From an uncultured Erysipelotrichaceae bacterium (lineage in GTDB: Bacteria; Bacillota_I; Bacilli_A; RF39; UBA660), in contig CACWUS010000013.1 in the NCBI GenBank assembly GCA_902764145.1, forward strand, positions 1 through 38,309: a stretch of DNA of 38,309 nucleotides. Reading direction: 5' to 3'. A program made the position numbers and the translations under genes. The notes beneath the pieces were generated by a model. It did not search any database. It worked only from the letters and a program-made list of their open reading frames with translations, and was not told where the DNA came from. Below, in pieces: positions 4,884 to 8,049 of this stretch. The stretch's first letter is position 1; the number at the start of each line of letters is the position of its first letter.

Positions 4884-6647
4884 TTAATTACTCCTTCCTT
4901 TATTTATTATCTCATTTTTTATAAGTTTGATAAAGTCATCTATTTCTAGATTAAATGTTTCGTTACTTCCTCTAAGTCTATAAGAAATTGTATTATTATC
5001 TCTTTCTTTATCTCCAAGAATTAAAGTATATGGTATTTTTGCTATAACACTTTCTCTCATTTTGTAACTTAATTTTTCATCTCTACTATCTAGTTCAACT
5101 CTAATATTGTTTTCCTTTAATAAATCAAATATTTTATTAGCATAATCTAAATGATACTCATTATTTACAGGTATAATATTTATTTGTCTTGGTGCTAACC
5201 AAAGAGGTAAATTTCCCTTAGTTTCTTCTAAAATATAAGCCATAAATCTATCTAATGAACCTAAAATAGCTCTATGAAGTACTACTGGAGTTTTCTTTTC
5301 ACCATTTGAATCTATATATTTTAAATCAAATTTAGCAGGTAAACAGAAATCTAATTGGCAAGTTGAAAGTGTGTATTCATTACCAACGGCAGGTTTAACA
5401 TTAACATCAAGTTTAGGACCATAGAAAGCAGCTTCTCCAATTTCCTCAGTATATTCTATACCAAGTTCATTTAAAACTTCTCTTAGTTCATTTTCTGCTT
5501 TATCCCACATTTCATCATCAGGATGATACTTTTCTTTATCTTCTGGATCTCTAAGAGATAGTACACATCTATAGTCTTTGATACCAAAATCTTTATATAC
5601 ATCAAATATTAAATCAACAACACTTTTAAATTCATCTTTAATTTGCTCTGGTGTTACAAAAAGGTGAGCATCATTTTGGCAGAAATGTCTTCCTCTTTCA
5701 ATTCCTTTAACAGCTCCAGATGCTTCAAATCTAAAGTCATGAGCTATTTCACCTATTCTAATTGGCAAATCTTTGTAAGAATGTAACTTATTTGAATAAA
5801 TCATCATGTGATGAGGGCAATTCATTGGTCTTAATACAAATGATTCACCTTCTAGTTCCATTGCAGGAAACATATTTTCTTTATAATGATCCCAGTGTCC
5901 AGATGTTTTATATAAATCAACTGTACCAACACAAGGAGTAAGAACATGCTGATATCCAAGATTTCTTTCTTTATCTTTAATATAGTTTTCTAATTCTTGC
6001 CAAATAATATAACCATTTGGTAAAAACATTGGAAGTCCACGACCTACTAGATCATCAGACATAAATATTTCTAAATCTTTTCCTATTTTTCTATGATCTC
6101 TTTGCTTAGCTTCTTCAAGTTCTTGCATGTATTCATTTAAATCTTCTTCGTTTTCATAACATACTCCATATATTCTTTGAAGCATCTTATTTTTAGCATC
6201 TCCTTTCCAGTAAGCACCACTTACTTTTAGAAGATGAAAATATTTAATTTCTTTTGTAGAGTTTACATGTGGTCCACGACATAAATCTATAAAGTCTTCT
6301 TGTTTATATGCACTAATTATTGTATCGTTTTCATCCATTCTACTAATTAAGTCTATTTTATATTCATCATCTTTAAACATATCTAAAGCTTCACTCTTAG
6401 ATAATTCTACTCTCTTAATAAGTTTATTATCTTTAGATATTTTTTTCATTTCCTTTTCAATCTTAGGCAAATCTTCTTCTGTTAAAGTAACATCTCCTAA
6501 ATCTATATCATAATAAAAACCTGTATCAATTACTGGTCCTACCCAATATTTAGCATTTGGATATAAATGTTTAATAGCATGTGCTAATAAATGAGCACAG
6601 CTATGATTTAACATATTTAATCTTTCATTATTTTTAATCTCTTTCAT
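4884..6647 (-). CDS. thrS: Threonyl-tRNA synthetase lacking the TGS domain
   Basis: ThrRS charges tRNA-Thr with threonine using ATP. The protein starts almost at the N2 editing domain: HSCAHLLAHA near the start and CRGPH about 120 residues on provide its His/Cys site. The class II core follows, with motif 2 (FRFEASGAVKGIERGR) and the zinc ligands Cys in MNCPHH, His in DAHLF and His in VVLHRAILGS, then the HGTP anticodon-binding domain. The N-terminal TGS domain of ThrRS (about 60 residues) is absent. I chose ATG 6647 (587 aa) because an AAAGGA site precedes it; an upstream GTG at 6677 would add ten lysine-rich residues and overlap the previous gene. It is regulated by the T-box at 7148-7336. 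Confidence 0.93.
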   Translation of the reverse strand: MKEIKNNERLNMLNHSCAHLLAHAIKHLYPNAKYWVGPVIDTGFYYDIDLGDVTLTEEDLPKIEKEMKKISKDNKLIKRVELSKSEALDMFKDDEYKIDLISRMDENDTIISAYKQEDFIDLCRGPHVNSTKEIKYFHLLKVSGAYWKGDAKNKMLQRIYGVCYENEEDLNEYMQELEEAKQRDHRKIGKDLEIFMSDDLVGRGLPMFLPNGYIIWQELENYIKDKERNLGYQHVLTPCVGTVDLYKTSGHWDHYKENMFPAMELEGESFVLRPMNCPHHMMIYSNKLHSYKDLPIRIGEIAHDFRFEASGAVKGIERGRHFCQNDAHLFVTPEQIKDEFKSVVDLIFDVYKDFGIKDYRCVLSLRDPEDKEKYHPDDEMWDKAENELREVLNELGIEYTEEIGEAAFYGPKLDVNVKPAVGNEYTLSTCQLDFCLPAKFDLKYIDSNGEKKTPVVLHRAILGSLDRFMAYILEETKGNLPLWLAPRQINIIPVNNEYHLDYANKIFDLLKENNIRVELDSRDEKLSYKMRESVIAKIPYTLILGDKERDNNTISYRLRGSNETFNLEIDDFIKLIKNEIINKGRSN

Positions 6648-6648
6648 A

Positions 6649-7131
6649 TTATTCAAATCCTTTTCTTTTTTCTTCACTTCTTTTATATTTTTTATGAAGT
6701 ACTACTCCTCTTTTATTTAATTCTCTTCTTGCAGCACATTGGTTTCTACAAGAATTATATTTTCTTTCTAATAAACATCTAAGTTCATATATACTCATAC
6801 TTGCATAATCATGGTATGAGTCGTCAATTTCTCTTTCTTTAACTTTTTCTCTAATAAATGTAGATTCACTATCTAATGTTTCTTCTTTTGGTATATAATA
6901 TGGAATTATGGTTTTACCATCATCAACAAGAATAACATCACCATCGTAAATTAACATAGGATTTTCTCTTATTTTATTAAAAGAACATCTTTTTAAATTA
7001 GGAAATAAAATTTTTACCTCATTGTGGGTGACTTTTTTTAAATCTTTCCCATTTAATGACACAAACCTAGATAAAAACTTAGCTAAGCTTATATCTCCAT
7101 ATTTTTTTGCAAATTCTACATCTTCTCTCAT
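6649..7131 (-). CDS. Hypothetical protein between the T-box leader and thrS
   Basis: An unrecognised basic 160-residue protein. It has several cysteines (a lone Cys near residue 49 and a cluster RCLLERKYNSCRNQC around 117-132), and its C-terminal 35 residues are strongly basic, as in nucleic-acid-binding tails. Its ATG follows AGGAGG 17 bases after the T-box terminator T-run, so it is the first gene controlled by that riboswitch. Its stop is one base before thrS. The position says it is made together with ThrRS in threonine starvation; any role in tRNA or translation is a guess. Confidence 0.7.
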   Translation of the reverse strand: MREDVEFAKKYGDISLAKFLSRFVSLNGKDLKKVTHNEVKILFPNLKRCSFNKIRENPMLIYDGDVILVDDGKTIIPYYIPKEETLDSESTFIREKVKEREIDDSYHDYASMSIYELRCLLERKYNSCRNQCAARRELNKRGVVLHKKYKRSEEKRKGFE

Positions 7132-7147
7132 TAATCCTCCTGAAATT

Positions 7148-7190
7148 AAAAAAAGGAATAGTACAAGGAGTCATAAGACGGTACCATCCC
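7148..7190 (-). terminator. Conditional terminator of the thrS T-box
   Basis: GGGATGGTAC (7190-7181) pairs with GTACTATTCC (7164-7155) over ten base pairs including G-U pairs, followed by seven T (7154-7148). The first arm is part of the T-box antiterminator, so the two structures exclude each other. Confidence 0.88.
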
Positions 7191-7336
7191 TTTATTTATC
7201 TTTATTAAGTTTTGTAACGAAAACTACTCGTAGGTTATTGGCCTCTATAAAATTGGTAGTAATTAATAAATAATCACTTTAGTTTACACCAACCACTAAA
7301 TCTCTTTGCTTCCTTATTTATTAATGTTGTCCAATC
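7148..7336 (-). promoter_or_regulatory. T-box riboswitch (threonine) controlling thrS
   Basis: On the minus strand the conserved T-box GGGATGGTACCGTC lies at 7190-7177. Upstream is a Stem I: base pairing ATTGG (7331-7335) with CCAAT (7252-7256), a 12-bp arm ATTAATAAATAA / TTATTTATTAAT, and a distal loop with AGAGA and GGTTGGTG, all typical of T-box Stem I. The bulge on the 3' side contains ACT and ACC in a row, both threonine codons, so the specifier is Thr whichever register is used. The terminator alternative is at 7148-7190. Uncharged tRNA-Thr should favour the antiterminator and allow transcription of the 160-aa gene, thrS and the 130-aa gene. Confidence 0.92.
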
Positions 7337-7371
7337 ACATTTACAATAAAATATTACCACAACTAGATTAA

Positions 7372-8049
7372 TTAAGCAACATCTTTTTCTAGTAATAAAC
7401 TTTTATCTTTTCTTTTGTTATCTACTAATAATGATAATTTATCTCTTAATAATTCTAATTCATATACATCTAGTTCTGAAATAGCCTTTGCAATATCAGC
7501 ACTTGTTACATCATTTTTAACAACAACATGTTCAACTACTTTATCATCTGTTAAATATGGTGTTAATTCCAATTCTTCTTCTTTAGTAGTTTCTCTTGTT
7601 ATATATTCAACTGGTGTTTCATATGTATCATATAATGAAACATCATTTTTACGTGCTTTATATTTTTCTGGTTTTTCAAAAATAACTTCTGTTTCACTAT
7701 TAACTAAAACATCACTTTTTGCTGAATCATCAATAACTTGTGCTTCAGGAATATCTTTAGGATTATAATAGTTACCATTTCTAATCTCTTCATCCATTTG
7801 TTTTGATATTGAATTCTTTTTATTGCTTATAATTTTTAATGCTTTAGTAAAATAATAAAATGGAATAAAACCTTTTAAAACATTCAAAAGAGAATCGTTA
7901 AAATTATATAAACTATTTCTATTTCTTTTAACGTAACCGCTTGTTTCTAATCTTTCTTCTACTATAGGTTTAATTGATTCAATTACTGCAAGACCAAATG
8001 CTGTAGTAATTAATTGAACAATAGCATAAACTAATAATACTCTATCCAT
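7372..8049 (-). CDS. Hypothetical membrane protein (225 aa) with acidic cytoplasmic tail
   Basis: Unrecognised. Residues 1-25 form a hydrophobic helix and residues 57-70 (LKGFIPFYYFTKALKI) a second, shorter hydrophobic stretch, with a basic loop between. The last 150 residues are charged, Glu/Asp-rich and probably mostly disordered, ending in a leucine-rich helix. It is monocistronic, with its own promoter at 8079-8107, and sits between the thrS T-box and the dnaI terminator. Its architecture (N-terminal helix, GY motif, second stretch with FIP, long charged tail) is similar to the protein at 11484-12092, so the two may be distant paralogues. Confidence 0.65.
   Translation of the reverse strand: MDRVLLVYAIVQLITTAFGLAVIESIKPIVEERLETSGYVKRNRNSLYNFNDSLLNVLKGFIPFYYFTKALKIISNKKNSISKQMDEEIRNGNYYNPKDIPEAQVIDDSAKSDVLVNSETEVIFEKPEKYKARKNDVSLYDTYETPVEYITRETTKEEELELTPYLTDDKVVEHVVVKNDVTSADIAKAISELDVYELELLRDKLSLLVDNKRKDKSLLLEKDVA

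Follow-up and report, generated by a model that had tools for sequence, protein, structure and literature searches.

The thrS locus and its T-box leader

The window (the whole stretch of 38,309 nt analysed here, from an uncultured Erysipelotrichaceae bacterium) carries a T-box leader, the gene of a 160-residue protein designated P0001 and thrS, in that order of transcription (Table 1). A sequence-only reading of this DNA had described a complete threonine T-box leader whose first gene ends one base before thrS, and both statements were borne out. The P0001 open reading frame (ORF) has an AGGAGG four bases ahead of its ATG, and its TAA stop codon (6651–6649) is separated by one base from the ATG of thrS, for which the ORF list also offers a GTG at 6677, upstream of this ATG, as an alternative start. 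The synthetase (ThrRS) possesses the tRNA_SAD, core and anticodon domains of Pfam and no TGS domain. Of 51 loci for which at least 1.9 kb had been fetched, 16 have the 225-residue gene upstream of thrS; in the window it lies upstream of the T-box.

Table 1. Features of the thrS locus in the window
Feature	Position	Strand	Evidence
thrS, threonyl-tRNA synthetase without TGS domain	4884..6647	-	TIGR00418, 695 bits; Pfam domains
P0001, 160-aa protein of a thrS-linked family	6649..7131	-	ORF; dN/dS
Intrinsic terminator of the T-box	7148..7191	-	Minimum free energy -14.4 kcal/mol, with T-run
T-box leader (RF00230), Thr	7163..7347	-	Infernal E 3.4e-7, 39.8 bits; recognisable in 15/15 same-genus loci printed
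T-box core UGGUACC	7180..7186	-	Sequence; UGGU pairs with tRNA 3' ACCA
Specifier codon ACU (inferred)	7258..7260	-	TTACT in 15/15 genus leaders
225-aa gene	7372..8049	-	No Pfam, NCBIfam or PADLOC match

The default Rfam scan of the window listed no T-box, the leader's 39.8 bits falling short of the gathering score of 93; the E value in Table 1 comes from a 901-base search, and the match stops within the terminator. Comparison of the 15 leaders of the same genus showed that the terminator folds in all of them and that UGGN is present in all, as is TTACT in the specifier region, with the next triplet (ACC in the window) differing in three. For 11 of these leaders the antiterminator comes out as the minimum-energy form of its piece; for the other four, among them the window's own, a different hairpin of that piece is predicted. 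In one of the 15 loci (L035, genome G014) the T-box reads UGGC in place of UGGU, and the terminator still folds.

The specifier ACU agrees with the regulated synthetase, thrS, in all 15 leaders. Both tRNA-Thr(UGU) and tRNA-Thr(CGU) of the organism's own genome end in ACCA, matching the UGGU of the T-box; these were the threonine isoacceptors seen among the tRNA matches (30 of 32 of which had loci). The T-box leader before P0001 and thrS is real, and control of P0001 by this threonine T-box is likely.

A thrS-linked protein family

A single-sequence search of 100 genomes, the organism's own among them, matched 21 at E up to 0.1, of which 16 were credible (G000, 11 more genomes of its genus, G032, G040, G042 and G052), with thrS adjoining the gene in all. 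G052 was kept despite its E of 0.0994, being matched by later profiles, while G005, G064, G080, G088 and G089 (E 0.02 or more) were taken as chance. A profile of 13 sequences then matched 43 of 386 genomes of the taxonomic family, and three of these (G107, G206, G437) were dropped as their matches were ribosomal protein L20 by reading. This left 39 homologues directly upstream of thrS and one true homologue elsewhere (G173), lying approximately 12.7 kb from thrS without a T-box match. The thrS locus of G173 (L190) has a 66-residue charged ORF between its TGGTACC motif and thrS. A profile of 24 sequences against 395 genomes of the class gave ten matches, from which G499 was dropped (E 9e-4, an internal stop, a 407-aa frame), and no credible homologue outside the family. 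It added G060, with the gene directly upstream of thrS; G101, where a TGGTACC motif (the sole mark by which the T-box was judged) lies between homologue and thrS; and G178, where the homologue's locus holds neither thrS nor the motif.

In total, 43 genomes have a credible homologue by these whole-genome profile searches, 40 of them directly upstream of thrS, one with the T-box motif between and two elsewhere, so that the gene is linked to thrS in 41 of the 43 when the arrangement in G101 is counted in. Placement under a threonine T-box, as earlier proposed, is thus supported and recurs across genomes, and the contrary case, homologues found mostly away from thrS and without a T-box, did not materialise. 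Among the 39 thrS-linked genomes of the 386-genome search, TGGTACC lies at most 72 nt upstream of the ORF start, or a few bases inside it, in 35; in one it is 243 nt off and in three it was not found, one of these (L096) having 66 upstream bases only. As far as searched, the P0001 family is limited to one family of small-genome uncultured bacteria.

A separate profile scan was made upstream of thrS in 56 family loci, namely the organism's own and those of 55 relatives out of the 56 in which thrS was matched (G048, whose match begins at a contig end, was left out; thrS went unmatched in G005, G036, G044 and G050). Here 26 members were found between T-box and thrS and two (G018, G023) directly upstream of the T-box, with 28 loci having no member in the stretch read; G021, a weak partial profile match, was counted outside the family. 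This count looked near thrS only and is therefore no test of linkage. Of 24 loci with the gene in this position and 1.9 kb or more fetched, 10 showed neither dnaI nor the 225-residue neighbour in the stretch, and the gene was still beside thrS. Altogether, the homologue lies outside the T-box transcript in five genomes, upstream of the T-box or its motif in G018, G023 and G101 and elsewhere in G173 and G178.

Two side observations were made during these searches. The L20 proteins (by reading) in L122, L123 and L124 have a C-terminal extension of the YSKMTVAEL...KKAEL type, which may resemble SAP/Rho_N helices, and in L122 and L123 the S2 protein, too, has such a tail at its end. Besides a normal thrS, G009 and G014 each have a second ThrRS-like match (G009:C35:6635-7978 and G014:C35:37175-38524), corresponding to approximately residues 146–593 of P0002 and 46–47% identical.

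P0001 consists of an N-terminal domain of approximately 75 residues (about residues 12–85) and a C-terminal part that is variable in length. Residues H36, G64 and Y78 are invariant across the 24 aligned members and V69 and D71 nearly so, all of them in the N-terminal domain, while identity to P0001 falls as low as 17% within this set. The dN/dS ratio is 0.14 (G010/G013), 0.18 (G016/G013), 0.19 (G010/G016) and 0.25 (G000/G007) in close pairs and 0.26 to 0.81 in the remaining, more diverged pairs printed. Purifying selection in close pairs, together with recurrence across genera, identifies P0001 as a real gene. It evolves far faster than thrS: for the pair G000/G007 its dN of 0.24 is approximately 24 times the value of 0.010 obtained with the N-terminal part of thrS.

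The protein had been called basic and rich in Cys and Lys. Its basic character stands (pI 9.2, with 21 of 24 homologues at 8.5 or more), whereas richness in Cys was overstated, there being four Cys in the 160 residues and 0–5 in the 24 homologues, at positions that are not conserved. The threonine content is 3.4% in the 24 homologues, 4.1% in the genes of the window and 3.8% in the 41 ORFs taken from the family search, among which one genome counts twice. A Thr-poor composition as the mark of a starvation gene was dropped from consideration since this reduction is not clear; nor is there any enrichment.

No match to P0001 was found in Pfam or NCBIfam. Pfam and PHROGs searches over the 24 members gave scattered single-member matches (best E 0.0038 and 0.0019), and a sequence search of the PDB gave weak ones to ubiquitin (E 0.018) and RsiG (E 0.29), all taken as chance. 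The full-length AlphaFold model (pLDDT 45.5) was left unused. A two-sequence model of residues 12–90 (pLDDT 68) has four short helices and a hairpin; with it, Foldseek reached a best E of 0.89, many of the top rows being winged-helix or ribosomal chains, and VIA-align found no chain at Z 2 or more among 603. A winged helix, hinted at by the Foldseek rows, is unsupported by VIA-align, and the search for an RNA-binding fold proposed by the sequence-only reading established none.

The absence of TGS from this ThrRS raises the idea that P0001 is its trans-acting replacement. In all 56 family thrS loci the nearest in-frame ATG lies approximately 12 residues ahead of HSCAH, too close to this motif for TGS to fit in, while 16 of the 20 thrS read outside the family (36 found) have an N-terminus of TGS length. 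Against this, profile comparison with the TGS domain of ThrRS gave hhalign probabilities of only 0.09% and 0.04%, so P0001 was rejected as a detached TGS domain; in 28 of these 56 loci without TGS the stretch read holds no member of the P0001 family; and thrS without TGS also occurs outside the family (4 of 20). We regard such a replacement as highly improbable. What remains of the comparison is that TGS is missing from ThrRS here and P0001 is the next gene upstream, with no profile similarity between the two.

Fast divergence, patchy presence and a fixed site would also suit a toxin–antitoxin or anti-phage element. PADLOC, a search for defence genes, gave no match for P0001, no relative was confirmed in the viral contigs searched, and comparison with Phd/YefM antitoxins, an idea taken from a by-eye pattern and a poor model, was rejected at hhalign probabilities of 0.56% and 0.21%. 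An element of this type appears very unlikely.

Variable content before synthetase genes

T-box and thrS are separated by a slot of variable content rather than by one constant gene. Measured from where the T-box match ends, thrS begins after 30–83 nt in loci without an insert and after about 220–920 nt in those with one. Within the same genus, the T-box stands directly before thrS in G002, G008, G011 and G017, and a fifth genome holds another ORF there; as some sister genomes do without it, the P0001 gene is dispensable. ORFs of 161–313 aa that the family profile does not match occupy the slot in G012, G021, G029, G041 and G059, short ORFs of 46–77 aa occupy it in seven genomes, and in G057 the 221 nt between T-box and thrS hold no ORF that reaches 45 aa. 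In a poorly supported ThrRS tree (57 rows, strong support for one inner branch), presence of the gene requires 15 changes; shuffled labels need only slightly more, 18.5 on average, and 23 of 500 shuffles came out equally low.

The very short ORFs that fill the slot in seven genomes, and the distance from ORF stop to thrS start (estimated at 101 nt in one of the 39 thrS-linked genomes and at -44 to +28 nt in the other 38), are what would be expected of a cis-acting leader ORF, in which the act of translation and not the product tunes thrS through translational coupling. Such an ORF would not account for purifying selection at the level of residues in close pairs, with three residues invariant in 24 members, nor for a gene outside the T-box-to-thrS interval in five genomes, and Thr is not enriched. 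We consider it unlikely, if less so than the TGS or defence proposals.

Other T-box units of the clade were also inspected. The organism's own genome has 12 T-box matches, before aspS, asnS, leuS, valS, pheS, lysS, ileS, alaS, trpS, tyrS, proS and thrS, and at six of these an extra ORF lies ahead of the synthetase. Before asnS it encodes an ASCH protein, before leuS what its sequence marks as a membrane protein, before valS an HD protein, before lysS a protein without assigned identity, before tyrS a dUTPase and before thrS P0001 itself. Some of these are housekeeping enzymes without an evident amino-acid link. In five other genomes (56 T-box matches, 30 with loci) an ORF is interposed at 16 of the 30 loci by reading. 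Of the six valS units seen, four (G000, G011, G040, G047; the organism's own is one of them) have an HD-type protein ahead of valS, that of G034 having a different short ORF and that of G052 no insert. All five leuS units seen, G040 (L151) included, carry a membrane-type ORF before the synthetase gene. The interposed products named overall were an HD hydrolase, a dUTPase, ASCH, HAD, deoC, a transporter and a membrane protein, the names outside the own genome being given by reading.

As some gene is interposed at about half of the clade's T-boxes read, position alone is no argument for a threonine role. P0001 may accordingly be an unrelated small gene riding in the thrS transcription unit, its linkage inherited and not functional. 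The interposed ORFs at 6 of 12 own T-boxes and 16 of 30 loci elsewhere point this way, as do the short and the non-family ORFs found in the slot. The gene's position beside thrS where its usual upstream neighbours were not found, and its occurrence elsewhere in 2 of 43 genomes only, speak weakly against it, and this argument from constancy loses force because a leuS-linked membrane protein and a valS-linked HD protein are constant in a similar way. Such a passenger is a fully plausible account, falling somewhat short of an even chance.

Possible roles of P0001

The reading put first here, though of no greater weight, is that P0001 is a lineage-specific, T-box-controlled accessory of ThrRS or tRNA-Thr. 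Starting from the leader, the gene, its linkage and the purifying selection shown above, we judge the accessory and passenger readings equally likely. For an accessory count the linkage to thrS in 41 of 43 genomes at identities down to 17%, the pair kept without its usual neighbours in 10 of 24 loci, the three genomes in which the gene is next to the thrS unit though upstream of the T-box or its motif, the leader with its terminator, selection in close pairs and the basic character of 21 of 24 members. Counted against it are patchy presence, a dN approximately 24 times that of the N-terminal part of thrS in G000/G007, the unrelated genes at other synthetase T-boxes, the two homologues away from thrS and the lack of a recognisable RNA-binding fold. 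Two results in particular weaken a threonine-specific reading, namely fast evolution with patchy presence and the commonness of interposed genes at T-boxes. Of the interpretation first put forward, the T-box placement is upheld, whereas a role in threonine use or in translation on starvation finds no such support, there being no family or fold match and no clear reduction in Thr.

On this reading, accumulation of uncharged tRNA-Thr would cause the leader to antiterminate, and P0001 and thrS would be transcribed together, with translation of thrS probably coupled to the end of P0001. The product, a small and usually basic factor, would then most likely act on ThrRS, on tRNA-Thr or on the starving translation machinery. 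A more specific proposal, to which we give a distinctly lower probability, is that P0001 is a fast-changing, T-box-induced modulator of ThrRS or tRNA-Thr in threonine starvation, and one of several passengers that make synthetase operons into amino-acid-specific starvation regulons.

A catalogue from 2008 (PMC2494555) includes T-box operons in which the synthetase gene is not first, as well as T-boxes ahead of genes of unknown function. The protein family of P0001 is new, whereas its operon is of a known kind: the locus resembles the T-box synthetase operons of Firmicutes in its T-box with terminator before thrS and differs from them in that its first gene belongs to a new family and in that a gene is interposed at about half of the T-boxes read. 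A possible precedent for its mechanism, drawn by analogy, is anti-TRAP (rtpA/yczA) of Bacillus subtilis, a small protein whose level uncharged tRNA raises via a T-box (PMC11255114). The likeness would lie in a small protein driven by a T-box; anti-TRAP binds zinc and belongs to the Trp system, whereas P0001 has no conserved Cys and is linked to thrS. Literature listings and the opening parts of abstracts named no thrS-linked protein of the P0001 kind, which does not prove that none is in print.

An action of P0001 on ThrRS or tRNA-Thr, if borne out, would make it a synthetase partner induced by starvation, of a kind for which no description was found in the literature searched. More broadly, the genes interposed at about half of the clade's T-boxes read are candidate starvation genes, each tagged by the amino-acid shortage that would induce it.
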